Source: Multifurca ochricompacta
Lineage: Eukaryota > Basidiomycota > Agaricomycetes > Russulales > Russulaceae
Assembly: GCA_022496185.1 (NCBI GenBank)
Contig: WTXG01000146.1
Coordinates: 26,419-90,418, forward strand
Direction of reading: 5' to 3'
Length of the DNA: 64,000 bases
The notes under the pieces are model-generated. The model had not been told where the DNA came from, ran no database searches, and worked only from the letters and a program-made list of their open reading frames with translations. Below are positions 12,954 to 58,261 of the stretch, piece by piece. Made by a program: the position numbers and the translations under genes. Position 1 is the stretch's first letter. Every line of letters begins with the position of its first letter.

Positions 12954-13257
12954 AATGGCCTTAGTCCCTCAGTAGTACATTCTAGTGCATTCCATTGCAC
13001 ACAGACCATCCCGTTGAAGTATATAAGGGTGTCTGTTTCATCTCTTACACTTCAGAGTTTTCTTCACCTCTGAAGTGTAAGTCCATTCCTCTTTACTTAC
13101 TACCTTACCTTTGACTAACTGTCTCATGTAGATAACTTGTCCTCTAGGTGTGTAGTATAGTAAAATAGAGTTTTCTTCACCTCTGAAGTATAACTTGTCC
13201 TCTAGCCTTATATGCTAACCACAGTCAGTATCACTGCATGCACATGCCTGTTTATCA
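12954..13257 (+). repeat. Copia-1 3' LTR, second part
   Basis: The LTR resumes after Gypsy-1. A TATA box (GTATATAAGG) is at about 13019. A 14-bp hairpin, a 55-nt intron-like sequence (13077-13131) and a spliced-form duplicate (13167-13205) follow. The LTR ends ...TTTATCA. The next bases TTTCA (13258-13262) are the expected right TSD; the left one is outside the window. Confidence 0.93.
13077..13131 (+). other. Intron-like segment in Copia-1 3' LTR
   Basis: A 55-nt segment with a GTAAGT donor, a branch-like GACTAAC and a TAG acceptor. The 23 nt before it (13054-13076) and 16 nt after it (13132-13147) recur fused without the intron at 13167-13205, with all 39 positions identical. Confidence 0.8.
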
Positions 13258-14074: not shown

Positions 14075-14338
14075 TGTTGAACACAGGACGTGTTTGGTGA
14101 TGCTTCAGGCATCAGGTGATTAGATTAGCTGCTTTGTAGATTAGATTAGATTCCGGAGTTTCGGACTTTTACTATATCTTTATTACTTTCTTTCTCACAT
14201 TCCACAGTAGCTGACTGATGCACCATGTAACATGTGATTCCTGTAGTAGCCAATGGCCTTTCTCCCTCTGTTTATTGTTTGGACTCTGTCCGGCACTTGA
14301 GGACTTATTCCCAGTGCACAGACCATCCCTTCAAAGAG

Positions 14339-14347
14339 TATATAAGG
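14339..14347 (+). promoter_or_regulatory. TATA box of Copia-2 5' LTR
   Basis: TATATAAGG about 24 nt upstream of the hairpin. The same box at the same spacing is seen in every Copia LTR of the window. Transcription should begin at or just before the hairpin. Confidence 0.75.
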
Positions 14348-14362
14348 GTGTCTGTTTCGTCT

Positions 14363-14400
14363 CTTACACTTCAGAGTTGTCTTCTCCTCTGAAGTGTAAG
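14363..14400 (+). other. Conserved 14-bp hairpin overlapping the LTR splice donor
   Basis: Arms CTTACACTTCAGAG and CTCTGAAGTGTAAG pair perfectly around a 10-nt loop. The 3' arm contains the intron donor (AAGT^GTAAG). The loop differs between LTRs while the arms are kept. Confidence 0.8.
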
Positions 14401-14450
14401 TCCCATCTACTCTACTAACTACTTTACCTTTGACTAACTGTCTCTTGTAG
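14396..14450 (+). other. Intron-like segment in Copia-2 5' LTR
   Basis: A 55-nt segment with GTAAGT donor, GACTAAC branch-like site 15 nt from the acceptor, and TAG acceptor, the size and signals of a basidiomycete intron. It lies in what should be the transcribed 5' end of the element. The 3' LTR holds the same segment at 21047-21101. Confidence 0.8.
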
Positions 14451-14486
14451 ATAACTTGTCTTTCTAGGTGTGTAGTATAGTGTAAT

Positions 14487-14526
14487 AGAGTTGTCTTCTC
14501 CTCTGAAGTATAACTTGTCTTTCTAG
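14487..14526 (+). repeat. Spliced-form duplicate of the LTR exon junction
   Basis: 40 nt identical to 14373-14395 joined to 14451-14467, that is, the sequence expected after removal of the 55-nt intron. It is separated from the first copy by a short spacer GTGTGTAGTATAGTGTAAT. Confidence 0.9.
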
Positions 14527-14580
14527 CTTAACCCGCTAACTCTCTACAGTCAGTATGCTGCGCCTCATGCCTGTTTCACA

Positions 14581-14594
14581 GGTTATGGGCCCTG
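14581..14594 (+). other. Copia-2 primer-binding site (half initiator tRNA-Met type)
   Basis: GGTTATGGGCCCTG directly abuts the 5' LTR. It is complementary to the anticodon arm (...GGGCCCATAACC) of eukaryotic initiator tRNA-Met, the half-tRNA priming used by Drosophila copia. The same site is present at 36211-36224 (-), 45203-45216 (-), 46358-46371 and 58262-58275. Confidence 0.85.
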
Positions 14595-16094
14595 GGCACG
14601 CTTTACTGATCTGTTACTTCTCTTGATCAGTCCAACCCTTCTTCAAGCTCACCAGCTTCAAGACTTCGTCTTTTTCCCAATCAGTCTTACAGTGAGCTTT
14701 GATTATTTTCCCCTTGCCCTTAACTATCCACAAGGTGGTGCGCTTTATGTGCCCACCTTGATCTGTCTGGCTAGTCCCTCAGGGGATTCTTGCAAGAGGT
14801 GATGAGGGACCCTAAGTGGGTGAAACACCTTGAGTTCCTCATGTGCGCTCTAAGTAAATAGTATTCTTAGTTGTAGCTGGGTTTTCGTCCCATCCATAGT
14901 CTTAGTAGGCCCCTTGCCCAGAAGGCTTGGAGCTATAGGTTCAGTCAATGCTTGGCTTGATCCGTAAGCCAGGTTTAGCGACCTGCAGGTAGAGTTTAGG
15001 GTCTAGAACAAGGCATGGGTAGTCACTCCCATGACGCTTGGGCTTGATACAAGTAGGCTTGAACTACTATAGTGTTACGCCCGGTGCGGGACGTCCCACA
15101 CGACTTGTGTGACAGCGTTCGTTCGTAGTCAGATAAAGGACCAACAAGATCCTTTGGAGTTTAGATGGGAAGAGTCAGAGTCAAAGAGGCTGCACTCTAA
15201 GACACTGTTGAGCAGAAGGTACCAGAAGTACCGAGACGACCGAGTCAAGGCTTTCAAAGGGATGTCCAGAAGACAAGCACCGATGTATTCAATAAGTCGA
15301 GTCTAAGGTCTACTGGGTAGCTATAGCGGACTTATATACGTAAAGCAGTGGGCGTCTATGAGATAAGGATACGGAGTCAAGTGGGCCCAAATATCTGAAA
15401 GCGGAGGGCGTAAAGCCTGGCTTCTACTGATAGGGGATTAAGTAAATGTCCGGTCATATGATAAGGAGATAAGCGATAAGCGAAGAAACAAGTAGGTAAA
15501 CATGAGCAAACAAACGAGTCACGGGGATGGACGAAGGGCATGTGACGGATCCCACGATGGAGACGTGATCTGGTAGTGAAGCGTGGGCGGCAGGGAAGGG
15601 TCATCGTTGGGTAAGAAGAAAAAGACTGGGAGTGACGGGGTTCGTAACATATAGTATTTACACAGTAGCTAGAGGGTTTTGTCTCTGGGCAGAAGTACCT
15701 GCTGCTTTCATTGGGGGTCCGCCCCAACCAGAGGAAACCTAATAGTCTACTATAGTCATGGCCCCAATCATCTAGGGCTTAATCATGGACTCCACCACCA
15801 GCACTAGAGGAAGGGCTCTATACCCTTTGTCTCTAGTGGAACTTGCAGTTGGCTCCTCCATGACATGACTCCCCATCTATTTACACAAGGTCCCCCTGAT
15901 GTGGGCTTAGGACTTGTTGTAGATGGCGTTAGACAGTCTACTATACTACTTAGAAGTCGCACATCAGAGGCAGGACTTTTTTAAGTTCTGAAGCATAGCG
16001 CCACAGAGTGGATGGGCCCTCTTAAATGAGACCTGGACAACTGGTTCTAACTGCTCCTTGGAACCAGGATCAAACCTTTTTAAAATCATCTCAA
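14595..16094 (+). other. Copia-2 leader
   Basis: An untranslated leader of about 0.9 kb, interrupted by a solo Gypsy LTR. Homologous leaders occur in Copia-1, -3, -4 and -Z. It contains no substantial ORF of its own. Confidence 0.85.
15073..15649 (-). mobile_element. Solo Gypsy LTR in Copia-2 leader
   Basis: 577 bp, TGTTAC...GTAACA, reverse orientation (matches 58277-58850), flanked by TATAG on both sides (15068-15072, 15650-15654). Left by LTR-LTR recombination of a Gypsy-1-family element. Confidence 0.95.
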
Positions 16095-19000
16095 ATGTCT
16101 TCCATCGTCTTCCCCCCCACCTTCAAGTTTGATAAACTTGATGGCTCCAACTGGCAGCAGTGGTCTGTGTCGTTCACAGCCCTGCTGAGGATTAATGGGA
16201 TGAAGAGGCATATTACACATGATGCCCCTGAATTCCTCAATCCTCCCAAGCCAGAGGATGGAGAAAAGGATGACAAATATGCCAAGCGCTTCGCACAATG
16301 GTCGGAGCCCATGTACTTGGAGTGGAATAGGGTTGAAGAAGTCCTCATGGGAGTTCTGGTCATGGTCACATCGCCAGAAACATACTCCCAAATTGCCTCT
16401 GACAGAACTTATCCTTCTGTCAATGCCAAGTATGAGCGTTTGGAATCGCTCTATGGCTCAGTAGGAAGCATGGCCACCTACAACTTGTGGTGTTCTGTGT
16501 CCTCCTTCCGCTTGGAGGAGGGTAAACAATTCAGACCCCAGTTGCAGCATGTGCTGGATGTGAGGAGTACCCTCAAGGAAAATGGGATGGAGATCTCTGA
16601 TCTCCAGCTGAGCTTTATATTGCTCCAATCCCTACCTCCATCCTACTCCGCCATTGCTGGCTCCATCCTGGCGTCAGGTCCACCTGACCGCCTTTCCCCT
16701 CAGGACCTTGTACAAAGGTTCCTAAATGAGGAAAGCCGACTTGCTGGCCCCGCAGGAAGTGGTGTTGGGGCTGCCCTTAACAAGGCAGCCCATGTCAACA
16801 AAAATAAAAACAAAAAACAAGTATCTTTCACGCCACCTCCTGCAGGTGCATCATCGTCCAATGATGTCACCTGCTTCTATTGCCAGAAGCCGGGCCACAA
16901 GGCAAATGAATGTCGGCAAAGGAAACAGGACAGAGCCAATGCTGATGCAGGCAAAAAGGGCAACAAGAGGAAGGGGCAAGGCCCCAGTGTACATAATAAC
17001 TCCACACAAGTAGCTACCATAGTTAATGGTAGTGGCAGAATACAGGAGGTGCATGAGACACCTCATATTTCACTTTATATGATGACCGAGCACACACAAG
17101 AGGTCGATGATGGCAGCAATCCTTGGATGATGGACAGTGGAGCCACCACTCATTTCACACCGTACCTAGATGACTTTTCTGAGTACTTCCCACACAAGGG
17201 TCATCAGGTGACAATTGGTGATGGTTCCATAGTCCAAGTCGAAGGAACAGGCAAAGTCATACTCAAAACTCGTAATAATTATGAGTTAGAGTTAAACAAT
17301 GTCTTTTACATGCCTGGCAGTGAAAGAATACTGTCGACAAGCTGCATCACTGACAAAGGTGGCTCAGTGGAATTTTCTCCATCTGAGGTCAAAATAAAGT
17401 ACAATAATACAATTATAGCGGAAGGTGTCAAGGCTATGGGACTCTACTGGGTCTTTGGGAAAACTATGCAAAATTTAAATACTGCGTCCCACAAATCTGC
17501 ATCAACTAGCCTTGAAACCTGGCATTTGCGCATGGGTCATATGTCAAAAGAGGCCCTCAAAAGATATGCTCCTAAGGCTGTAAAAGGTCTTAGCATAGAT
17601 AATAGCCAAGTGGAAGACAAGCCGTGTTATGGCTGTGAAATGGGAAAATCACACCGTCTTCCATTCCCTCCCTCTCAAAAGAGAGCTTCAGCACCCTTGG
17701 AAGTCATTCATAGTGACCTAGTTGGTCCTCTGCAATGCACTTCAATTCAAGGGAACCTATACTTCGCCACTTTCATAGACGACTTTAGCAGGACAGCTCT
17801 AGTTGTTGCTATGAAAGCGAAAAGTGATTTCACATCGGTCTTCAGTAATGTTAAGGCATTCTTGGAAAATAAAACAGACAAGAAAATAAAGACCTTACAC
17901 ACAGACCAAGGTGGCGAATTTGTCAATAGGGAGCTGAAGTCAATACTTGAGCAGGCTGGCATAGAGCATAAATTGACAATGCCATACTCCCCACAACAGA
18001 ACGGAAGGGCTGAAAGGTTCAATAGAACCATCATGGAAAAGGCCACCAGTATGCTGCATCATGCTGGTCTTTCCCTTGGGTTCTGGGAATGTGCAGTGCG
18101 AACAGCCTGTCACATATACAATAGAACACCAATCCGTTCAAATAAGTGGAGGACACCGCTTGAGCTTCTGGATGGGGACATTCCAGATGTCTCGTACTTT
18201 AAAATCTTTGGCTGCTTAGCCTACTATACTGTCCCAGAGGATAAAAGACGCAAACTGGATCACAAAGCCAGAGAAACAGTCTTTGTCGGGTATGCACCCC
18301 ATTCTAAAGGATATCTTCTTTGGGATATGCATACTTGATCCTTCGTATTGTCAAGAGATGTGACATTTGATGAAGGATCCTTCCCATCTAACCTTGCAAA
18401 GGACAGCAAGGGAAAGCAAAAGGAAAAAGTTACACCTTTTGTGTTAGAAGCAGAGAGGCCTGTCCAGCCTCAACCAGTAATAGCCACAGTTCCTCAGGCT
18501 CCTGAAGACAAGGATGCCAAGGTTGAGGAACAGGAGGTAGTGGAACCTCCTCAAATAAATCCTGAGCCTACCACACCTGAAAATGAACTTGACACACACG
18601 ATCAAACTATCTATCAGACACCTCCTTCCCAAATCATGGAACCATCAGAACTCCCCCAAAGAACCCATGCCAAAAGACAAACTAAGAAGAATGTTGGCAA
18701 GATTTCCCAACCAGTTTTACTAGGGAAAGTCCACGGTCTCAGCAACGTGACAGGGCTGTGCAGGAAGATTTAGATCTTGATACTGCCCGTCCCAGACGTT
18801 CGCGTCGCATGAATCCTCAATTCTATAATGAGGATAATGCTGAGTTCGTACAGGGTTCTTCCAGACTTGGGCATATGGAATTGCTAAATGCCGCAGGTGT
18901 CTCTTATAGAGACCCCCTGACTTTTCAGGAGGCAATGCAGTCTGACAATGCCAGTGAATGGCTTGAGGCATGTAAATATGAAATAGATGCCTTAGATAAA

Positions 19001-20454
19001 CTTAATGTGTGGCGCCTTGAGGATCTTCCTAAGGGAAGAAAGGCAGTCAAGTCAAAATGGGTTTTTAAGCTGAAACCAGATGGACGATTTTGTGCTAGGC
19101 TCGTGGCAAAAGGTTTCACCCAAATTGAAGGGGTGGACTTCAATGAAACATTCTCTCCAGTCGCCAGATTTGAATCACTCAGATTATTACTAGCGCTAGC
19201 TACGCTAGAGGATTGGGAAATCCACCAGATGGATGTCAAGTCGGCATTCCTTCATGGCGATCTGGATGAAGAAATTTATATGGAGCAACCAATTGGTTTC
19301 ATCGTTACTGGTCAGGAGTCCAAAGTTTGTAGGCTACAAAAAGCACTATATGGCCTCAAACAAGCTTCCCGAGCATGGAATCTACAATTCCATGCAGTTC
19401 TTAATGAACTGGGCTTTACTCGGACGTACTCTGATGCAGGAGTATACGTGTTTCATCAAAAGGAGGGGGATGATTCGCTTTTGTCATTCTCTATGTAGAT
19501 GACATTACTATACTTGGGTCTTCCAATGATAAGATAACGTGGCTGAAGTCAGCTCTATCTAATCGATATGAGATGACTGACTTGGGAGAAATCCAGTCAT
19601 ATCTTGGAGTTAACATCACCAGAGATCGTCCTAATAAGACACTGGAGATTGACCAAGCAGCCTACGGTTTATCTATTATTGAGAAGTTTGGGATGAGGGA
19701 TTCCAACCGAGTATATACTCCTCTTCCCTCTGGCGCTGATGTACATCTGGTCAAGTTTGAAGGCCAGGCATCTACTTCAGAAATAAAGAAGTATCAACAG
19801 TTGATGGGGTCTCTGCTATGGGTGCAGATTGGAAGCAGACCTGATATCAGTTTTGCTGTGGCGCGCCTTAGTCAATACGCTTCCAATCCCTCTCAAGATC
19901 ACATGCGACTTGCAAAGTATGTCTTAAAGTATCTAAATAGTACAAAAGACTGCAAGTTGCGGTATTCTGGAGGGAATGGGGAGAGTGGCCTTCATGGCTT
20001 TGCAGATTCCTCATGGGGAGATCAAGAGGACTGCCACTCTACCTCAGGCTACATGTTTTTCTTGGCAAATGGTGCCATTTCATGGTGTTCCAGAAAACAG
20101 AAAACAGTAGCACAGTCCACCACTGAGGCCGAATATATGAGCCTCTCTGAGGCTGCAAATCAGGCAACGTGGTACAGGACTTTTATGGAGGAATTAGGGT
20201 ATGAGGTATCCTCCCCTATACTACTCCATTGTGACAATAAGGGTGCCATAGATTTGGCATTAAACCCAGTCACAGGAAGGCGGTCAAAGCATATACCCAT
20301 CAAGTACCATGCCATTAGGGGGTACATTGAATCACACATAATAGAATTAGTGCGAACCCCCACAGGTGAGATGCTGGCAGATGGCTTCACTAAGTCTCTA
20401 CCAAGAGCATCGTTTGAAACCATGGTCAATGGACTTGGACTTATGCTGAAATGA
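16095..20454 (+). pseudogene. gag-pol: Copia-2 gag-pol
   Basis: Single-frame gag-pol of subfamily II (start MSSIVFPPTFKFDKLDG). Gag with knuckle CFYCQKPGHKANEC runs in frame into protease (DSGATTHF) and integrase (HTDQGGEFVN). TGA at 18336 falls just after HT in the integrase/RT junction, a stop also found at the same place in Copia-3. One-base deletions near 18716 and 19475 shift the RT frame. The rest of RT and RNase H (TEAEYMSL, CDNKGAIDLAL) is otherwise complete to the natural end. Confidence 0.95.
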
Positions 20455-20725
20455 GAGAGCTGGAATCTGGAGACTTTGAATACCAGTTTCACTTTCCCAC
20501 CATGAGCAAAATTCTCAACTTCGAGAGTGACGCAAGAGGTGTGTATGGTTTCAGTTTGCATAAGCGAATCACCGCGATATGCCTCTGAACACCACGTGTC
20601 TCTCGCACTCAAAAGAGTTAGAGAAATTGGATCTCTGGCTGGCAATATGCTCATTTAATTGTGATGGCAGTGTGCTCATCCAACTCATTTTCCATCCATG
20701 ACCAGATGCCTTCAGCATGGAGGGA

Positions 20726-21231
20726 TGTTGAACACAGGACGTGTTCGGTGATGCTTCAGGCATCAGGTGATTAGATTAGCTGCTTTGTAGATTAGATTAG
20801 ATTCCGGAGTTTCGGACTTTTACTATATCTTTATTACTTTCTTTCTCACATTCCACAGTAGCTGACTGATGCACCATGTAACATGTGATTCCTGTAGTAG
20901 CCAATGGCCTTTCTCCCTCTGTTTATTGTTTGGACTCTGTCTGGCACTTGAGGACTTATTCCCAGTGCACAGACCATCCCTTCAAAGAGTATATAAGGGT
21001 GTCTGTTTCGTCTCTTACACTTCAGAGTTGTCTTCTCCTCTGAAGTGTAAGTCCCATCTACTCTACTAACTACTTTACCTTTGACTAACCGTCTCTTGTA
21101 GATAACTTGTCTTTCTAGGTGTGTAGTATAGTGTAATAGAGTTGTCTTCTCCTCTGAAGTATAACTTGTCTTTCTAGCTTAACCCGCTAACTCTCTACAG
21201 TCAGTATGCTGCGCCTCATGCCTGTTTCACA
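20726..21231 (+). repeat. Copia-2 3' LTR
   Basis: 506 bp, nearly identical to the 5' LTR. Preceded by the purine tract GGAGGGA (20719-20725). Intron-like segment at 21047-21101 and spliced duplicate at 21138-21177. Confidence 0.96.
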
Positions 21232-22663: not shown

Positions 22664-24115
22664 TAGTGATTGTCAAGGGTTTTCATACCCGCGCAGGTAA
22701 GCGCCACGGGTTTTGCCAGGTACAGGTACGGGTATATGGCTCCCAACCTGTGGAAACCCGTACCCGCACGGTGGGTTTGGCGGGTATAGGCACTGATTAT
22801 CCATTGACAAGATCAGTGGAATTTCCAAGATAAAACACATCTGCAGCCACAAAAATACAAGATCTCGTCTGATGTATGATACAGGGTGAATGTAAATATG
22901 TTCTAGTGTTATCCTACAAAATATCAAAGCAGATCAACGGTGCAATGTAAAATAAAAGTGTTATCAGTGATCTACATTCTTGAAAATCATGATGCATCTG
23001 TTTTATTAATGCGTGACCAATTCTGCTGGTCTGGCACTATCTAAAATACTCTCTAGACTACTTTAGACTATTCTATAATCTAATTATCAAATTAATTTAT
23101 TGAAACAAGGCCCGCGTGTATCTACAAGCTGCATGGGGCAGCGACTACATTGCATTGCATGGTGGTCTGACCTCCTTCCTATTAAGGAAGGTTGACTTAA
23201 ACGCACAGAATTGTGCATCCAGGGACCAGGACAGTCGTGCTTGTATGAAATGAAACTAGAATAATAAAATAATAATGTAAATAAAAGATCCTTTTAATCT
23301 TCTGAACATAAAACAACAATTTTTGAGGAATCTTGAGTAGCCATAAATGAACGCGTTGTGTCCAAGTGCTTATCTCCTTGACCGGGATGGCCCGGGCCAT
23401 TTATCCGAAATGCGCAGAAATGCAAAGATTGGTCGCGCTCGTATAAAATTGAAACCAGAATAATAAAATAAAATTGGAATAATAAATTATCTTAATCTTA
23501 TGAACATAAAATAGGAATCTTTGAGGGATCTTGAGTAGCCATAAATGAACGCGTTGTGTCTGAGTGCGTATCTCCTTGACCGGGATGGCCTGGGCCAATT
23601 GTCTGAAATGTGCGATGCAAGTAAAGAACTTGCACGTGTTTCATTTTATGGGCAACCCAGGTATCAAAACAATTATCCAGGGGTTACCCCTGCCAATGTC
23701 TATGTGTTCATTAAATTTTTTTGCATTCTGTGTGGTTATCTGACAGGCTATTCATCAATGTTCTATAACATCCTATCTAATCATCTCTGTATACTGGATT
23801 TTAGTTGTGCTTGTATAAAATTGAAAGCAGAATAATAGAAAAATAATGGAATAATGAATTATCTTAATCTTCTGAACATAAAACAAGAGCCATTGAGGGA
23901 TCTTAAGCAGCCACAAATAAACGCATTGTGTATCTTCTTGGTCCAGGAAGGCCTGGGCCAGTTATCCGAAATGCACGATGCAAGTAAAGAACTTGCATGC
24001 GTTTTCATGGGTGACCTGCGGGTAACCCACGGGTTACCTGTACCCGTCACTACGGGTACGGGTATGGGTACGGGTACCAATGAGTATACCCCAGGGTTAC
24101 CCCTGCCAATCACTA
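22664..24115 (+). mobile_element. hAT-B, non-autonomous hAT-like element
   Basis: 1452 bp, TIR TAGTGATTGTCAAGGG / ...CCTGCCAATCACTA, with a perfect 8-bp TSD AGCACAGT (22656-22663, 24116-24123) in the NLR exon. GGTACGGGTACGGG-type repeats lie near both ends, with two AT-rich units of about 200 bp from 23200. No transposase. Homologous to hAT-A and hAT-F. Confidence 0.93.
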
Positions 24116-28943: not shown

Positions 28944-29199
28944 TGATGAACAGGCAAGGTGTGCAGCATACTGACTGTAAGAGTTAGTGGGTTAGGCTAG
29001 ACAAAGAAAGTTACTTCAGATGTTAGAAGAACTCTGTATTAACTATACTACTGACCTAGACAAAGAAAGTTCTATATAATGAACATTAGTCTAATAGTTA
29101 AGTAGATAGTAAAGAAGGAACTTACACTTCAGATGTTAGAAGAACTCTGAAGTGTAAAAGATGAAACAGACACCCTTATATACCCATGGGGGCCAGGGG
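28944..29199 (-). repeat. Copia-Y 3' LTR, first part
   Basis: Inverted LTR beginning TGATGAACAGGC. It is long form, with intron-like segment at 29072-29125 and spliced-form duplicate from about 28998. Broken by Copia-3 with TSD AGGGG (29195-29199 and 45597-45601), and continues at 45602. Confidence 0.9.
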
Positions 29200-29578
29200 T
29201 GTCGAACAGGCATGAGGCGCAGCATACTGACTGTAAAGGTTAGTGGTTTAGGCTAGAAAACAAGTTATACTTCAGAGGTGAAGAAAAATCTGAAGTGTAG
29301 GAGACGAAACAGACACCCTTATATACCCCAAGGGATGGTCTGTGCGCACTGGGAATAAGTCCACAAGTGCTGGACAATAAGTATGAGGGACAAAGGCCAT
29401 TGGCCACTACAGAAATCACATGTTACATGGTGCATCAGTCAGCTACTGTGGAATGTGAGAAAGAAAGTAATAATGATAATGTAAAAAGTCCAAGACTCCG
29501 GTATCTAATCTATCTACAAAGTAGCTAATCTAATCACCTGATGCCTGAAGCATCACTGAACATCTTCTGTGTTCAACA
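29200..29578 (-). repeat. Copia-3 3' LTR (short form)
   Basis: 379 bp. In LTR orientation the hairpin exon is joined directly to the downstream exon, with no GTAAGT intron, spacer or second copy. Followed on the + strand by the polypurine tract complement TCCCTCCATG. Confidence 0.93.
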
Positions 29579-29744: not shown

Positions 29745-30236
29745 TGATAAACAGGCATGTGCGCGCAGTGATACTGACTGTGGTTAGTGTGTAAGGCTAG
29801 AACAAGTTATACTTCAGAGGTGAAGAAAACTCTTTATTACTATACTACACACCTAGAACAAGTTATCTACAAAAGATGGTTAGTTATAGGTAAAGTAGTA
29901 AGTAAAGAGACTGGGACTTACACTTCAGAGGTGAAGAAAACTCTGAAGTGTAAGAGATGAAACAGACACCCTTATATACACTTCAAGGGATGGTCTGTGC
30001 ACAATGGAATGCGCTAGAATGTACTACTGAGGGACTAAGGCCATTGGCCAGTGAGATATCACATGCTACACAGGATTACTAAGGTATATCAGTCAGCTGC
30101 TGCGCATCGCGAGAAAGAAAGTAATAATGATAAGGTAAAAAGTCCGAAACTCTGAATCTTTATCTAATCTAATCTAGCACAGCTTAGACCCTAACCCAGA
30201 TGCCTGAAGCACCTCAAGACACATGCCGTGTCAACA
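29745..30236 (-). repeat. Copia-4 3' LTR (long form)
   Basis: 492 bp. Intron-like segment at 29867-29921, flanking exon parts at 29922-29944 and 29853-29866, and the spliced-form duplicate at 29797-29833 with all 37 positions identical. Confidence 0.95.
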
Positions 30237-36224: not shown

Positions 36225-36716
36225 TGATAAACAGGCATGTGTGCGCAGTGATACTGACTGTGGTTAGTGTGTAAGGCTAGAACAAGTTATACTTCAGAGG
36301 TGAAGAAAACTCTTTATTACTATACTACACACCTAGAACAAGTTATCTACAAAAGACGGTTAGTTATAGGTAAAGTAGTAAGTAAAGAGACTGGGACTTA
36401 CACTTCAGAGGTGAAGAAAACTATGAAGTGTAAGAGACGAAACAGACACCCTTATATATACTTCAAGGGATGGTCTGTGCACAATGGAATGCGCTAGAAT
36501 GTACTACTGAGGGACTAAGGCCATTGGCCAGTGAGATATCACATGCTACACAGGATTACTAAGGTATATCAGTCAGCTGCTGTGCATCATGAGAAAGAAA
36601 GTAATAATGATAAGGTAAAAAGTCCGAAACTCCGAATCTTTATCTAATCTAATCTAGCACAGCTTAGACCCTAACCCAGATGCCTGAAGCACCTCAAGAC
36701 ACATGCCGTGTCAACA
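36225..36716 (-). repeat. Copia-4 5' LTR (long form)
   Basis: 492 bp, the same length as the 3' LTR, with hairpin, intron-like segment and spliced-form duplicate conserved. One hairpin-arm base is changed (ACTATG for ACTCTG). Confidence 0.95.
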
Positions 36717-45216: not shown

Positions 45217-45596
45217 TGTCGAACAGGCATGAGGCACAGCATACTGACTGTAAAGGTTAGCAGTTTAGGCTAGAAAACAAATTATACTTCAGAGGTGAAG
45301 AAAACTCTGAAGTGTAGGAGACGAAACAGACACCCTTATATACCCCAAGGGATGGCCTGTGCGCACTGGGAATAAGTCCACAAGTGCTGGACAATAAGTA
45401 TGAGGGACAAAGGCCATTGGCCACTACAGAAATCACATGTTACATGGTGCATCAGTCAGCTACTGTGGAATGTGAGAAAGAAAGTAATAATGATAATGTA
45501 AAAAGTCCGAGACTCCGGTATCTAATCTAATCTACAAAGTAGCTAATCTAATCACCTGATGCCTGAAGCATCACCGAACATCTTCTGTGTTCAACA
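45217..45596 (-). repeat. Copia-3 5' LTR (short form)
   Basis: 380 bp. Compared with long LTRs it lacks about 112 bp, equal to intron plus one duplicated unit plus spacer. Followed by the TSD AGGGG. Confidence 0.95.
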
Positions 45597-45957: not shown

Positions 45958-46357
45958 TGTTGAACACTAGATGTGTTCAGTGATGCTTCAGGCATCAGGA
46001 GATTAGATTAGCTACTTTGTGGATTAGATTAGATATCAGAGTTTTGGACTTTTTATCATATCATTATTACTTTCTTTCTCACATTCCACAGTAGCTGACT
46101 GATGTACCTTAGTAATGATGTACAAGCATGTGATTACCATTGGCCAATGGCCTTTATCCCTCTTGTTTATTGTCCAGCACTTGTGGACTTATTCCCAGTG
46201 TGCACAGACCATTTTTCCTGGCCCCCATGGGTATATAAGGGTGTCTGTTTCATCTTTTACACTTCAGAGTTCTTCTAACATCTGAAGTAACTTTCTTTGT
46301 CTGGCCTAACCCACTAACTCTTACAGTCAGTATGCTGTGCACCTTGCCTGTTCATCA
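45958..46357 (+). repeat. Copia-Z 5' LTR (short form)
   Basis: 400 bp, TGTTGAACACTAG...TTCATCA. Very similar to the Copia-Y LTR but with the intron, spacer and second copy missing, leaving one spliced-type junction (CTGAAG joined to TAACTTTC). A 5-bp CTTGT (45953-45957) is the likely left TSD. Confidence 0.9.
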
Positions 46358-46371: not shown

Positions 46372-47299
46372 ATGCACTTTAACTGATTTGTACTCTTTTA
46401 TTCTTGATCAGTCCAACTTTCTTCAAGCTCACAAAAAGCTTCAAGTTTCCTTCCCAACAAACTTACTTTCCATGAGCTTCATTATTTCTACTTGCCCTTA
46501 ACTGTCCACAAGGTGGTGCGCTTTATGTGCCCACCTTGATCTGTCTGGCTAGTCCCTCCTGTTGAACACAGAAGATGTTCGGTGATGCTTCAGGCATCAG
46601 GTGATTAGATTAGCTACTTTGTAGATTAGATTAGATACCAGAGTCTCAGACTTTTTACATTATCATTATTACTTTCTTTCTCACATTCCACAGTAGCTGA
46701 CTGATGCACCATGTAACATGTGATTTCTGTAGTGGCCAATGGCCTTTGTCCCTCATACTTATTGTCCGGCACTTGTGGACTTATTCCCAGTGTGCACAGA
46801 CCATCCCTTTGGGTATATAAGGGTGTCTGTTTCGTCTCTTACACTTCAGAGTTCTCTTCACCTCTGAAGTGTAAGTTCCAATCTCTCTACTTACTACTTT
46901 ACCTATAACTAATTGTCTCTTGTAGATAACTTGTTTCTAGGTGTGTAGTATAGTAATATAGAGTTCTCTTCACCTCTGAAGTATAACTTGTTTCTAGCTT
47001 AAACTGCTAACCTTCACAGTCAGTATGCTGTGCCTCATGCCTGTTCAACACCTCCAGGGATTCTTGCAAGAGGTGACAAGGGACCCTAAGCAGGTGAAAC
47101 ACCTTGAGTTCCTCATGTGCGCTCTAAGTAAATAGTATTCATAGTTGTAGCTGGGTTTTTGTCCCATAGATAGCTTTAGTAGGCCACTTGCCCAGAAGGC
47201 TTGAGGCTTTAGGTCCAGTCAATGCTTGGCCCAATCCATAAGCCAGGTTTAGCAACCCACTGGTAGAGTTTAGGGTCTAGAACAAGGCATGGGTAGTCA
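46372..47299 (+). other. Copia-Z leader, interrupted by a solo LTR
   Basis: Leader DNA at 46372-46559 and 47056-47299, homologous to the Copia-2 leader. It stops at 47299, where Copia-5 entered (left TSD AGTCA, 47295-47299). Confidence 0.85.
46560..47050 (+). mobile_element. Solo Copia LTR (long form) in Copia-Z leader
   Basis: 491 bp, TGTTGAACACAG...GTTCAACA, TSD CCTCC (46555-46559, 47051-47055). Intron-like segment 46871-46925 (CTAAT branch-like site). Spliced duplicate 46960-46997 identical to 46848-46870 plus 46926-46940. Confidence 0.95.
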
Positions 47300-47812
47300 T
47301 GTTGAACAGGCATGAGGCACAGCATACTGACTGTAAAGGTTAGCGGTTTAGGCTATAAGACAAGTTATACTTCAGAGGTGAAGAAAACTCTGTATTACTA
47401 TACTACACACCTATAAGACAAGTTATCTACAAGACAGTTACTCAGAGGTAAGCTAGTAAGTAAAGAGGATTGGACTTACACTTCAGAGGTGAAGAAAACT
47501 CTGAAGTGTAAGAGACAAAACAGACACCCTTATATACTTTCCAAGGGATGGTCTGTGCACTGGGAATAAGTCCACAAGTGCTGGACAAAGTTCAAACAAT
47601 AAACAAGAGGGACTAAGGCCATTGGCCAGTAAGGAATCACATGCTTGTACATCATTACTAAGGTACATCAGTCAGCTACTGTGGAATGTGAGAAAGAAAG
47701 TAATAATGATATGGTAAATAGTCCAAAACTCTGATATCTAATCTAGTCCACAAAGTAGCTAATCTAATCTCCTGATGCCTGAAGCATCACCAAACATGTC
47801 CTGTGTTCAACA
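47300..47812 (-). repeat. Copia-5 3' LTR (long form)
   Basis: 513 bp with intron-like segment and spliced duplicate. Both exon copies carry the private variant CTATAAGAC (others have CTAGAAC), again showing that the copies change together. Confidence 0.93.
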
Positions 47813-49368: not shown

Positions 49369-50104
49369 TGTTACGACCCCTGCCTAGCAACCCACTTTTC
49401 TTCACCATTCCCAACAATGACCCTGCCCTTCCCCCTATGTTACATTTCTTGATCACATCTCCCTCCTGGGACCCATCACATGCCTTACTCCCTTCCCTGT
49501 GATTGCCTTTGTCTTTGTTTATGTCACTTTGCTTATGATTGTCCTCTTATCTTATCTCTTATCCTTATCGTTACGACTGGACACTTACTTAATTCCCTAT
49601 CAGAAGCTCAGCTTTATGCCCTTCACTTTCATATATTTGGGCCCACATGACTCTACAATATCTTATCTTTAGATGCTCATCTGATTACATATATAAGTCT
49701 GCTGTAACTACATTGTAGACCTCAGACTCGACTTATTGAATACAGTGCCTCACAAAACTGAGTCAATGTTTTGCACTTTTGCACTGTTTGTTGAATATCA
49801 CATCAGCCAAAACAAATATAAACAAAGTCTTGGTAGACCATAAAAGGTACAAGATAAGGGTTATGTAATGCAGCAATGATTATGTAATTCTGATCAAAAC
49901 TTGTGGAGCTATGCCCATTTCAAATTGGGGACTCATTGACTCAGTTTTGTGAGTGGGTATCAGAAATATCAGAATCTGATGCTCCACCAAATGTACAGCA
50001 ACCAATCCTTAATATATGGTTACCATAGTTGTCTTAATATTGATGGGGCCTGGAATAGAGCTATTTAACCATGGTTTACATTCCCAGAATATTATAATTT
50101 CCCA

Positions 50105-50548
50105 ATGCACCCCACCTCCTCTGCTCAGAAAGAAAACATGCTCTCTCTGGCCTCTGAAGGTCATTCCACTGACACTTTTGCCTCCAGACTCAGCCTCAGC
50201 CAGTCCACAGTCTCTAGGACACTCAGAACCCTCCTTCCCAACCATCAGTCACCTCATTTTGGTCATCCTTCCAAGCTCTCTGCTACCTCTGAACATGCTA
50301 TCATGATACAAATCACCACAGGAAAGGTTGCCAATGCTGTCCAGGCCACAAAGCACATCAATTCCATCATCCCCAACCATGTCTCTTCACAAACTGTGCA
50401 CTGGGTTCTTAAACAACATTCATTCAAGGCTGTAACAAAGAAGAAAAGGCCACTACTCTCTGCAGTACATTGCAAGAAGCACTTAGCCTTTGCTTTGAAG
50501 TACAGAGAGTGGACTGTGGAGGACTGGCATATGACCCAAACCTGTTGA
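50105..50548 (+). pseudogene. Tc1-like transposase N-terminus, left arm
   Basis: 147 codons with a helix-turn-helix (TFASRLSLSQSTVSRTLRTL) and a second DNA-binding part (HVSSQTVHWVLKQHSFKAV). Runs off at EDWHMTQTC, where the inverted arm begins, and lacks the DDE/D domain. Confidence 0.85.
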
Positions 50549-51002
50549 TTTTGGTCTCATCTGACCAAATCACCCTCTTCCAGTCCTCCATAGTCCAGTT
50601 TTGGTACTTCAAAGCAAGGGCTAAGTGCTTCTTGCAATGTACTGCAGAGAGTAGTGGCCTTTTCTTCTTTGTTACAGCCTTGAATGAATGTTGTTTAAGA
50701 ACCCAGTGCACAGTTTGTGAAGAGACATGGTTGGGGATGATGGAATTGATGTGCTTTGTGGCCTGGACAGCATTGGCAACCTTTCCTGTGGTGATTTGTA
50801 TCATGATAGCATGTTCAGAGGTAGCAGAGAGCTTGGAAGGATGACCAAAATGAGGTGACTGATGGTTGGGAAGGAGGGTTCTGAGTGTCCTAGAGACTGT
50901 GGACTGGCTGAGGCTGAGTCTGGAGGCAAAAGTGTCAGTGGAATGACCTTCAGAGGCCAGAGAGAGCATGTTTTCTTTCTGAGCAGAGGAGGTGGGGTGC
51001 AT
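50424..51002 (-). pseudogene. Tc1-like transposase N-terminus, right arm
   Basis: 192 codons, mirror copy of the left-arm ORF. It continues through the spacer to VIWSDETKINRFGS, which includes the first catalytic Asp of the Tc1 DDE domain, before running antisense into the left arm. Confidence 0.87.
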
Positions 51003-51420
51003 TGGGAAATTATAATATTCTGGGAATGTAAACCATGGTTAAATAGCTCTATTCCAGGCCCCATCAATATTAAGACAACTATGGTAACCATATATTAAGG
51101 ATTGGTTGCTGTACATTTGGTGGAGCATCAGATTCTGATATTTCTGATACCCACTCACAAAACTGAGTCAATGAGTCCCCAATTTGAAATGGGCATAGCT
51201 CCACAAGTTTTGATCAGAATTACATAATCATTGCTGCATTACATAACCCTTATCTTGTACCTTTTATGGTCTACCAAGACTTTGTTTATATTTGTTTTGG
51301 CTGATGTGATATTCAACAAACAGTGCAAAAGTGCAAAACATTGACTCAGTTTTGTGAGGCACTGTACATCGGTGCTTGTCTTCTGGACACTCCCCTTTGA
51401 ATCCTTGACTTGTCCATCTC

Positions 51421-52813: not shown

Positions 52814-54463
52814 TAGTGATTGTCAAGGGTTTTCATACCTGCGCGGGTAAGCGCCATGGGTTTTGCCAGGTACAGGTATGGGTATATGGCTCCCAACCCA
52901 TGGAAACCCATACCCGTGCGGCGGGTTTGGCGGGTATAGGTGCCGATTATCCATTGACAAGATCAGTGGAATTTCCAAGATAAAACACATCTGCAGCCAC
53001 AAAAATACAAGATCTCGTCTGATGTATGATACAGGGTGAATGTAAATATGTTCTAGTGTTATCCTACAAAATATCAAAGCAGATCAATGGTGCAATGTAA
53101 AATAAAAGTGTTATCAGTGATCTACATTCTTGAAAATCATGATGCATCTGTTTTATTAATGCATGACCAATTCTGCTGGTCTGGCACTATCTAAAATACT
53201 CTCTAGACTACTTTAGACTATTCTATAATCTAATTATCAAATTAATTTATTGAAACAAGGCCCGCGTGTATCTACAAGCTGCATGGGGCAGCGACTACAT
53301 TGCATTGCATGGTGGTCTGACCTCCTTCCTATTAAGGAAGGTTGACTTAAATGCGCAGAATTGTGCATCCAGGGACCAGGACAGTCGTGCTTGTATGAAA
53401 TGAAACTAGAATAATAAAATAATAATGTAAATAAAAGATCCTTTTAATCTTCTGAACATAAAACAACAATTTTTGAGGAATCTTGAGTAGCCATAAATGA
53501 ATGCATTGTGTCCAAGTGCTTATCTCCTTGACCGGGATGGCCCGGGCCATTTATCCGAAATGCGCAGAAATGCAAAGATTGGTCGCACTCATATAAAATT
53601 GAAACCAGAATAATAAAATAAAATTGGAATAATAAATTATCTTAATCTTATGAACATAAAATAGGAATCTTTGAGGGATCTTGAGTAGCCATAAATGAAC
53701 GCGTTGTGTCCAAGTGCTTATCTCCTTGACTGGGATGGCCTGGGCCATTTATCCAAAATGCGCAGAAATGCAAAAATCGGTCGCACTCGTATAAAATTGA
53801 AACCAGAATAATAAAATAAAATTGGAATAATAAATTATCTTAATCTTATGAACATAAAATAGGAATCTTTGAGGGATCTTGAGTAGCCATAAATGAACAT
53901 GTTGTGTCTGAGTGCATATCTCCTTGACCGGGATGGCCCAGGCCGATTGTCCGAAATGTGCAATGCAAGTAAAGAACTTGCATGCATTTCATTTTATGGG
54001 CAACCCAGGTATCAAAACAATTATCCAGGGGTTACCCCTGCCAATGTCTATGTGTTCATTAAATTTTTTTGGATTCTGTGTGGTTATCTGACAGGCTATT
54101 CATCAATGTTCTATAACATCCTATCTAATCATCTCTGTATACTGGATTTTAGTTGTGCTTGTATAAAATTGAAAGCAGAATAATAAAATAATAATGGAAT
54201 AATGAATTATCTTAATCTTCTGAACATAAAACAAGAGCCATTGAGGGATCTTAAGCAGCCACAAATAAACGCGTTGTGTATCTTCTTGGTCCGGGAAGGC
54301 CCGGGCCGGTTATCCGAAATGCGCGATGCAAGTAAAGAACTTGCACGCGTTTTCACGGGTGACCCGCGGGTAACCCGCGGGTTACCTGTACCCGTAGTGA
54401 CGGGTACGGGTACGGGTACGGGTACCAACGAGGATACCCCAGGGTTACCCCTGCCAATCACTA
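52814..54463 (+). mobile_element. hAT-F, non-autonomous hAT-like element in Gypsy-2 gag
   Basis: 1650 bp, TIR TAGTGATTGTCAAGGG / ...CTGCCAATCACTA, perfect 8-bp TSD CCACCTTC (52806-52813, 54464-54471). 198 bp longer than hAT-B because it has three instead of two AT-rich tandem units (from about 53349, 53556, 53752). GGTACGGGTACGGG repeats near the right end. Confidence 0.94.
53349..53950 (+). repeat. About 200-bp tandem units within hAT-F
   Basis: Three units, each with GCGCAGAA..., ATAAAATTGAAACCAGAATA-like AT stretches and ending in CTTGAC-GGGATGGCC. hAT-B carries two (about 23200-23600). Confidence 0.8.
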
Positions 54464-57756: not shown

Positions 57757-58261
57757 TGTTGAACACAGGAGATGTTCGGTGATGCTTCAGGCATCAGGTG
57801 ATTAGATTGGCTACTTTGTAGATTAGATTAGATACCGGAGTTTTGGACTATTTACATTATCATTATTACTTTCTTTCTCACATTCCGCAGTAGCTGACTG
57901 ATACACCATGTAACATGTGATTTCTGTAGTGGCCAATGGCCTTTCTCCCTCTTGTTTATTGTTTGGACTATGTCCGGCACTTGTGGACTTATTCCCAGTG
58001 CACAGACCATCCCTTGAAGAGTATATAAGGGTGTCTGTTTCGTCTCTTACACTTCAGAGTTTCTTCTACCTCTGAAGTGTAAGTCGTCCTTTCTACTATC
58101 ATCACTACCTTGAGACTAACTCTGTATATAGAACTTGTCTTTGTCTAGGTGTGTAGTATAGTATAATAGAGTTTCTTCTACCTCTGAAGTAACTTGTCTT
58201 CGTCTAGCCTAACCCGCTAACTCTCTACAGTCAGTATGCTGCGCCTCATGCCTGTTTCACA
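57757..58261 (+). repeat. Copia-6 5' LTR (long form)
   Basis: 505 bp, TGTTGAACACAGG...TTTCACA, inserted in Gypsy-2 integrase (left TSD CCACC). Intron-like segment 58079-58131 (53 nt, ending TATATAG). The duplicate at 58168-58207 joins exactly at the shifted acceptor (GAAGT to AACTT), 39 of 40 positions identical. Confidence 0.95.

Follow-up and report, generated by a model that had tools for sequence, protein, structure and literature searches.

A retroelement that passes through RNA is expected to lose its introns, and its spliced RNA is usually regarded as lost to replication. Among LTR retrotransposons, the barley Copia element BARE1 contains an intron and produces a spliced RNA; in the excerpted text of PMC3735527 this RNA serves to make Gag and is argued not to take part in replication. 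The BARE1 intron is internal, unlike the one described here, which lies in the LTR. Ogre/EVADE elements are likewise LTR retrotransposons with introns, and there, according to the excerpted account, the introns serve subgenomic RNAs (PMC12786077). Spliced RNA of HIV-1 can be packaged and reverse transcribed, as stated in excerpts of PMC1868081; however, this RNA accompanies an unspliced genome, whereas in the element considered here the spliced RNA would be the normal template.

The closest precedent for masking a splice donor at the 3' end of an RNA, which in our case is suggested by predicted opening energies, comes from the foamy viruses. In these, R contains a splice donor that precedes the poly(A) signal (excerpts of PMC3694450 and PMC3185757). 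SHAPE analysis indicated that RNAs starting at +1 and at -13 fold differently, and the 3' fold was proposed to hide the donor and to block U1 snRNP (PMC3694450, in excerpt). The likeness lies in a donor situated in the 5' part of the LTR transcript. The foamy viruses are, however, animal retroviruses, and the excerpts of PMC3694450 describe neither a copy of joined exons nor a genomic RNA that has lost an intron lying within the LTR. An LTR with an intron and a pre-spliced copy was also absent from the literature on introns in LTRs, among the matches listed and as far as their excerpts go.

The element analyzed here resembles Ty1/Copia elements in its Gag, an integrase that precedes RVT_2, TG..CA LTRs, a primer-site candidate, a purine tract and a 5-bp duplication. 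It differs from them in a predicted intron inside the LTR together with a copy of the same sequence that is already spliced. From its sequence we consider it a Copia LTR retrotransposon with a proposed replication cycle that was not met in the literature listed.

The Copia element and its long terminal repeats

The window, i.e. the whole 64-kb stretch of DNA that was analyzed, belongs to an assembly of 53.8 Mb in 605 contigs, which is likely fungal to judge by the size of the genome and of its introns. The element with the feature under study has the following parts.

14075..14580, + strand: Copia 5' LTR with the feature; TG...CA ends, with primer-binding site, polypurine tract and an imperfect target duplication read
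14581..14594, + strand: primer-binding-site candidate GGTTATGGGCCCTG, adjoining the end of the 5' LTR
16026..18338, + strand: open reading frame with Copia gag, zinc knuckle and integrase domains (Pfam)
18758..19498, + strand: open reading frame with reverse transcriptase RVT_2 (Pfam)
19573..20454, + strand: open reading frame with the end of RVT_2 (below the Pfam cut-off); remainder without Pfam match
20714..20725, + strand: purine-rich stretch preceding the 3' LTR, likely the polypurine tract
20726..21231, + strand: Copia 3' LTR (TATA 20990), partner of 14075..14580
21024-21046, 21047-21101 and 21102-21118, + strand: exon 1, intron 1 and exon 2 of the 3' LTR (checked by script)
21119-21137 and 21138-21177, + strand: spacer and copy of the 3' LTR (checked by script)

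The integrase is thus encoded upstream of the RVT_2 reverse transcriptase, as in Ty1/Copia elements, and TG..CA LTRs, a candidate primer-binding site, a likely polypurine tract and a short target duplication are all present. The duplication is read from the flanks of 14075-21231, CCCGC and CCCAC, which are alike in four of five bases. The candidate primer-binding site GGTTATGGGCCCTG is identical in the 25 commonest of the 35 forms tabulated. A search of the assembly for the tRNA primer gave no match to GGGCCCATAACCC and one match to GGGCTCATAACC, around which ARAGORN found no tRNA. No tRNA with a contiguous arm matching the primer-binding site was found in the assembly, and ARAGORN found no tRNA gene in the 64-kb window.

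The layout of the long LTR is given below for the 5' LTR, with E1 and E2 denoting the exons and E1' and E2' their copies.

14339..14346, + strand: TATA box; its 19-nt core is also found genome-wide
14363..14376, + strand: left arm of a 14-bp hairpin, the first 10 nt lying upstream of the putative cap site
14373..14395, + strand: exon 1 (E1); its first base is the putative cap site, 34 nt past the start of the TATA box
14387..14400, + strand: right arm of the hairpin, made of the end of E1 and the intron-1 donor GTAAG
14396..14450, + strand: predicted intron 1, GTAAGT...CTAAC...TAG, 55 nt; junction read from the copy
14451..14467, + strand: exon 2 (E2), 17 nt, resembling a branch point, a pyrimidine tract and AG
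14468..14486, + strand: spacer, starting with the donor-like GTGTGT and containing TAGTATAG, a candidate poly(A) signal region
14468..14526, + strand: predicted intron 2 of 59 nt, comprising the spacer and the spliced copy; its donor is GTNNGT, and E2' ends in its acceptor TCTAG
14487..14509, + strand: E1', copy of exon 1
14510..14526, + strand: E2', copy of exon 2, directly adjoining E1' with intron 1 absent
14527..14580, + strand: U5, with a further conserved CTAAC..CAG TCAGTA motif

Downstream of its TATA box a long LTR therefore has E1 (about 23 nt) and E2 (14-18 nt) on either side of intron 1, then a spacer close to 19 nt in length, E1'E2' and U5. The preliminary description had reported that the two exon parts, joined without the segment between them, recur exactly downstream. 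A script check confirmed this in all three fully given examples, namely 14373-14395+14451-14467 = 14487-14526, 13054-13076+13132-13147 = 13167-13205 and 46848-46870+46926-46940 = 46960-46997; each of them has the donor GTAAGT and the acceptor TAG. Beyond the two LTRs of the element above, the window contains these long LTRs, all with exon 1, intron 1, exon 2, spacer and spliced copy.

13054..13205, + strand: long LTR
46848..46997, + strand: long LTR
58056..58207, + strand: long LTR (TATA 58022); acceptor shifted by 2 nt, copy shifted too
47353..47503, - strand: long LTR (TATA 47536)
36277..36422, - strand: long LTR (TATA 36458)
29797..29944, - strand: long LTR (TATA 29978)
28997..29149, - strand: long LTR (TATA 29182); acceptor TATATAG/AACTTT, followed by the copy

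A shifted acceptor, described in the earlier observation as tracked by the duplicate, was seen at 58022+ and at 29182-. One exon-2 base of the 58022+ LTR is unlike its copy, and in the 36458- LTR the match between source and copy begins two bases later. Among the 12 LTRs with a TATA core in the window, nine have the long layout and three are short (29325-, 45342- and 46232+).

Other repeats were noticed in the window. Positions 49741-50527 and 50580-51366 form an inverted repeat with arms of 787 nt, 99% complementary and 52 nt apart. An 82-nt repeat has seven copies in 23280-23931 and 53430-54279, many of them spaced 198 nt apart.

Generality and edges of the spliced copy

The 19-nt TATA core occurs 1528 times in the 53.8-Mb genome. 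A sample chosen by this core only comprised 99 LTRs in 98 records, taken from the first 100 places listed, on contigs C1-C20. The exact 29-nt spliced core was found downstream in 85 of these 99 LTRs; the remaining ones were three with 1-2 mismatches, three short LTRs and eight that were truncated, interrupted or diverged. The set used for statistics contained 151 LTRs, i.e. the core-sampled ones, those of the window and loci fetched by similarity (L001-L030, L129-L138). Because this set was partly picked by similarity to the finding, its proportions are biased toward the long form. Before the counts were made, places read more than once were reduced to a single reading, and TATA cores followed by fewer than 230 bases were removed.

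A junction of the GT-AG type was found in 130 of the 151 LTRs, another junction in six, and 15 had no copy that could be parsed. A copy was counted as unparsed when it had more than 4 mismatches in 29 nt, and the counts of agreement exclude such copies (15/151). Among these 15 are six short LTRs and a long one, L075, whose copy has visibly diverged. The six junctions other than GT-AG reflect a mutated site or an ambiguous or wrong parse. The search for the junction required neither GT nor AG, and GT-AG was found in 130/136 in spite of this. The donor of intron 1 is GTAAGT in 132/136 and its acceptor TAG in 132/136 LTRs; its length is mostly 49-57 nt, and a CTRAY motif lies within the last 30 nt in 128/129. 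Intron 1 hence has the features of a spliceosomal intron, its join being read from the DNA copy rather than from RNA. Together, these counts confirm that the layout is general across the sampled LTRs and not a product of chance; it was seen in one genome. In two of the LTRs, L086 and L093, nearly identical foreign sequence lies about 100-150 nt after the TATA box; it starts with CAGTGCCTCACAAAACTGAGT beside TA and is probably the end of a DNA transposon.

The edges of the copy are well defined. Its start lies at TATA+34 in 110 and at TATA+33 in 21 LTRs, together 131/136. This fixed distance of 33/34 nt places the likely cap site there, at AGAG, so that it would coincide with the 5' edge of the copy. 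The spacer donor was located by a GT..GTAG search in 134 of the 136 LTRs with a copy (none in 2/136); these 134 were analyzed, and 129 of them have a GT-AG junction. The spacer begins with GTCAGT in 66 cases, GTGTGT in 64, GTATGT in three and GTTAGT in one (n=134), and TAG precedes the spacer donor in 131 LTRs. Almost every source accordingly has TAG|GTCAGT or TAG|GTGTGT at the 3' edge of the copied sequence, and almost every copy has AG|C there. Layout and copy edges are established from these sequences.

The spacer and the copy together measure 56-61 nt in 129/129 LTRs, and E2' ends in AG in 128/129. The sequence from GTNNGT to this AG is approximately as long as intron 1, and it is probably a second intron, so that the RNA would lose two; its excision is deduced from where the copy starts and ends, together with the forms that are missing in the genome (see below). 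The resemblance of exon 2 to a branch point, a pyrimidine tract and AG would then follow from the role of E2' as the acceptor of intron 2. The spacer also contains TAGTATAG, a candidate poly(A) signal, in 121/134 LTRs. In U5 a good acceptor, CTAAC..CAG, occurs in 133/134 and CAGTCAGTA in 125/134 LTRs, which gives an acceptor-like plus a donor-like site. The cycle proposed below has no role for this acceptor, which counts against it.

Agreement between the copy and its source

The copies and their sources vary together. The last 19 nt of E1 are identical to E1' in 130/134 LTRs (mean of 2000 shuffles 16.6, maximum 30), and E2 is identical to E2' in 121/134 (mean 10.9, maximum 22, again with 2000 shuffles). 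Source and copy differ by 0.16 edits on average, compared with 0.91 edits between LTRs whose introns are most alike and 5.8 between random pairs. Distances between the source exons correlate with those between the copies with a coefficient of 0.971, compared to 0.699 with those of intron 1, 0.289 with those of the spacer and 0.178 with those of U5. In 51 disjoint pairs of LTRs with similar introns and different exons, both copies follow their exons in 41. The test suggested earlier, of whether the two copies covary more than the spacer and the intron, agrees with joint renewal in a sample of LTRs rather than in all of them, and independent divergence of the copies was not seen in the sampled LTRs.

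The choice of acceptor provides a second record. The 129 GT-AG LTRs fall into 13 classes according to the start of exon 2, e.g. ATA-, A-, TTA-, CTA- or TA- before ACTT, and in the source TAG stands directly before each of these starts. The copy has the exon-2 start of its source in 128/129 LTRs (shuffle maximum 41); the single exception is an LTR that is the sole member of its class. An acceptor that is shifted in the source hence recurs as a shifted join in the copy, which indicates that splicing and reverse transcription set the copy; this fits splicing followed by reverse transcription and not conversion at the DNA level. Covariation and tracking of the acceptor are established. They favor the original proposal that a spliced 5' RNA end is reverse transcribed and that the copies are renewed together, with the splicing itself deduced from the DNA. 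The second donor/acceptor pair at the 3' edge of the copy, the hairpin that would distinguish the two RNA ends, and the short LTRs are additions to that proposal.

The differences between copy and source are few. With L082, which has a broken copy, left out, there are 14 differences in 128 LTRs, and 11 of them lie in the 3' half of exon 2. This uneven distribution implies that the end of the copy may sometimes come from another template, and it may be due to partial replacement or to a transfer from one RNA to a different one. The same half of exon 2 is also more variable between LTRs that share exon 1 (1424 to 526). Some of the differences seem to be inherited, since they are shared by the probable LTR pairs L090/L091 and L117/L118, as judged from spacing and sequence. 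In L045:1501+ and L049:1501+ E1 ends in GAAGC, E2 in CTAT and E2' in CTAG; renewal from an element's own doubly spliced RNA does not account for the mismatch between CTAT and CTAG.

A proposed replication cycle with splicing, and its alternatives

The explanation which we regard as probable on the sequence data is that first-strand DNA made from the spliced 5' end of the RNA lands on the joined copy, and that copy and intron are renewed in each cycle. In the proposed cycle transcription would start at AGAG, 33/34 nt past the TATA box. The 5' end of the RNA would lose intron 1 (GTAAGT..CTAAC..TAG), an excision which the DNA copies appear to record, and also intron 2 (GTNNGT..TAG), i.e. the spacer plus the copy; the leader after double splicing would be E1-E2-U5. 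At the 3' end of the RNA intron 1 would stay, because a sequence in U3 pairs with its donor in the predicted 14-bp hairpin. Cleavage of the RNA in or just after E1' would remove the acceptor of intron 2 and leave an unspliced 3' end of the form U3-E1-intron 1-E2-spacer-E1', with TAGTATAG as the candidate cleavage signal. The strong-stop DNA E1-E2-U5 could then pair with E1'(E2') at the 3' end of the RNA in the first-strand transfer. Its extension through spacer, E2, intron 1, E1 and U3 would produce the observed LTR, and E1'E2' would in each cycle be overwritten by the product of the latest splicing. Short LTRs without introns, which exist, would be the outcome of pairing with the first E1.

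The full form of this scheme makes splicing obligate. The terminal repeat for transfer would arise at the 5' end of the RNA only after loss of the two introns, intron 2 would store the spliced repeat, and the hairpin, formed at the 3' end only, would keep intron 1, so that the introns are re-created. Taken jointly, these steps seem to us somewhat more credible than not.

In the predicted hairpin the sequence CTTACACTTCAGAG, before and at the putative cap, can pair with CTCTGAAGTGTAAG, the end of E1 plus the donor. All 14 pairs are possible in 71 of 124 LTRs, 13 in 46, 12 in five, 11 in one and six in one; the left arm forms on average 4.8 pairs with other 14-mers of the LTR, at most 12. Ten of the 14 bases of the left arm lie upstream of the putative cap, so the whole hairpin could form only in RNA of the 3' LTR. 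Folding predictions put the cost of opening donor 1 at 9.3 kcal/mol in the 3' context and at 4.5 kcal/mol in the capped 5' context; it is 3.5 kcal/mol in the 3' context when the upstream 20 nt are shuffled. The cost is higher in the 3' than in the 5' context in 124/124 LTRs. This opening-energy test was chosen after a test of pairing probabilities had given no clear split. In long folds the donor is unpaired with a mean probability of 0.269 in the 3' context and 0.326 in the 5' context, the 3' value being the lower one in 80/129 LTRs; in short local folds the means are 0.224 and 0.187, which is the wrong way, and the 3' value is lower in 50/129. Pairing probabilities do not, therefore, separate the two contexts. 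By opening energy, but not by pairing probability, the 14-bp hairpin is predicted to mask the intron-1 donor in RNA of the 3' LTR only.

It is possible, if unlikely, that renewal occurs as proposed and that the hairpin serves the promoter or integration, with retention of the 3' intron resulting from formation of the RNA 3' end or from distance. The steps of cap, double splicing, strong-stop transfer and short LTR are compatible with this alternative as well. It gains from the failure of the pairing probabilities to separate the contexts and from the near invariance of the arms, by which co-variation cannot be shown. However, the right arm covers the donor, the left arm is mostly upstream of the putative cap, and the opening cost differs in every one of the LTRs compared.

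The forms that are missing from the genome bear on whether both introns leave the RNA. If RNA that has lost only intron 1 were the template, some LTRs should show joined exons followed by the spacer. This arrangement gave no match genome-wide, neither in the NTAACTTG class, which makes up 72/134 of the sampled LTRs, nor with any exon 2 of similar size; since the spacer pattern recognizes 119 of the 134 spacers in the sample, it would overlook roughly one in nine. The NTAACTTG class has, in contrast, 447 cases in which the joined exons lead into U5, and the donor context of intron 1 occurs 1517 times genome-wide in any class. The absence of the first arrangement is established for these patterns.

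An alternative, which we judge to be distinctly improbable, is that intron 1 alone is spliced. The strong-stop DNA would then be E1E2-spacer-E1'E2'-U5, and one unit would be lost by slippage of reverse transcriptase or by recombination, homogenizing the copies. The concentration of 11 of the 14 copy differences in the 3' half of exon 2 is what partial replacement would give, but this half also varies more between LTRs with a common exon 1. Donor 2 (GTGTGT/GTCAGT) has a weak consensus and is predicted to be more closed in the 5' leader than donor 1 (8.2 vs 4.5 kcal/mol); after removal of intron 1 its opening costs 7.3 kcal/mol. These properties favor splicing of intron 1 only. On the other hand, such a process should leave behind joined exons with a spacer, or an extra unit, for which the genome gave no match with a pattern that misses approximately 1/9 of the spacers. 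It also leaves unexplained why the copy ends exactly, with TAG before GTNNGT in the source and AG before U5. Growing arrays and loss of intron 1 only were rejected on the zero matches to joined exons plus spacer with this pattern.

The short LTRs have the order TATA-E1E2-U5. Those in the window are listed here.

45217..45596, - strand: short LTR (TATA 45342), 5' end of an element; exons joined, without intron or spacer
29200..29578, - strand: short LTR (TATA 29325), 3' end of the same element; CCCCT on both sides
46232..46304, + strand: further short LTR, from the TATA box to the end of the joined exons

LTRs of this form are rare, with 19 in the NTAACTTG class. At three sites of the class searched, intron 1 is present and intron 2, i.e. 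spacer plus copy, is precisely absent; the third of these is cut by the start of its contig, with exon 1 off the contig. The three sites and the short LTRs, which would be the only direct record of an excision of intron 2, could also be explained by recombination between direct repeats. The element 45217-45596/29200-29578 has two short LTRs and a perfect 5-bp target duplication, CCCCT, and replication, or a short parent, fits this combination better than a deletion in one LTR. The short LTRs L149, L150 (contig C246), L140 (C35) and L153 (C357) share private variants of the TATA region (TATATAAGGGTGGCTG; TATATAAGGAGGTCTATTT), which suggests that elements of the short form may themselves multiply. 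A search for poly(A)-tailed retrocopies from which the 3' end of the RNA could be read gave two matches, neither of them LTR-like in the printed letters.

Neighboring repeats can be homogenized by conversion. A tandem duplication at the DNA level, homogenized by gene conversion and with a segment between the exons that is a never-spliced insertion, is nonetheless a very improbable origin of the copies. It would account for short LTRs and for those without intron 2 through recombination between E1 and E1' or E2 and E2'. However, the element with intact ends has both of its LTRs short, the distance between the TATA box and the start of the copy is fixed, and 130/136 junctions are GT-AG without this having been demanded. 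Conversion across a segment of 49-57 nt that is absent from the copy would not place the joins at GT-AG. A duplication confined to DNA was rejected because the copy tracks the shifts of the acceptor in 128/129 LTRs. That copy and intron arose only once and agree within each LTR by common descent, as the shared layout of the sampled long LTRs might suggest, is scarcely tenable, since independent copies should differ at least as much as relatives do, and this is contradicted by an agreement of E1 and E2 far above the shuffles and by 0.16 edits between copy and source against 0.91 for the nearest relatives and 5.8 for random pairs.

The renewal of the copy from spliced RNA has several implications. 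The DNA copies from many variants of the LTR would record spliced RNA as the template, and yet the intron persists. If the proposed cycle is correct, it represents a mode of replication in which splicing creates the R repeat. Each long LTR would store its own splicing product, and the choice of splice sites would be documented naturally in what may be over 1000 LTRs of the genome. The element would also provide a second setting in which identical LTRs need different processing at the two ends of an RNA. Finally, it would be an unusual way for a retroelement to escape the general loss of introns on copying through RNA.
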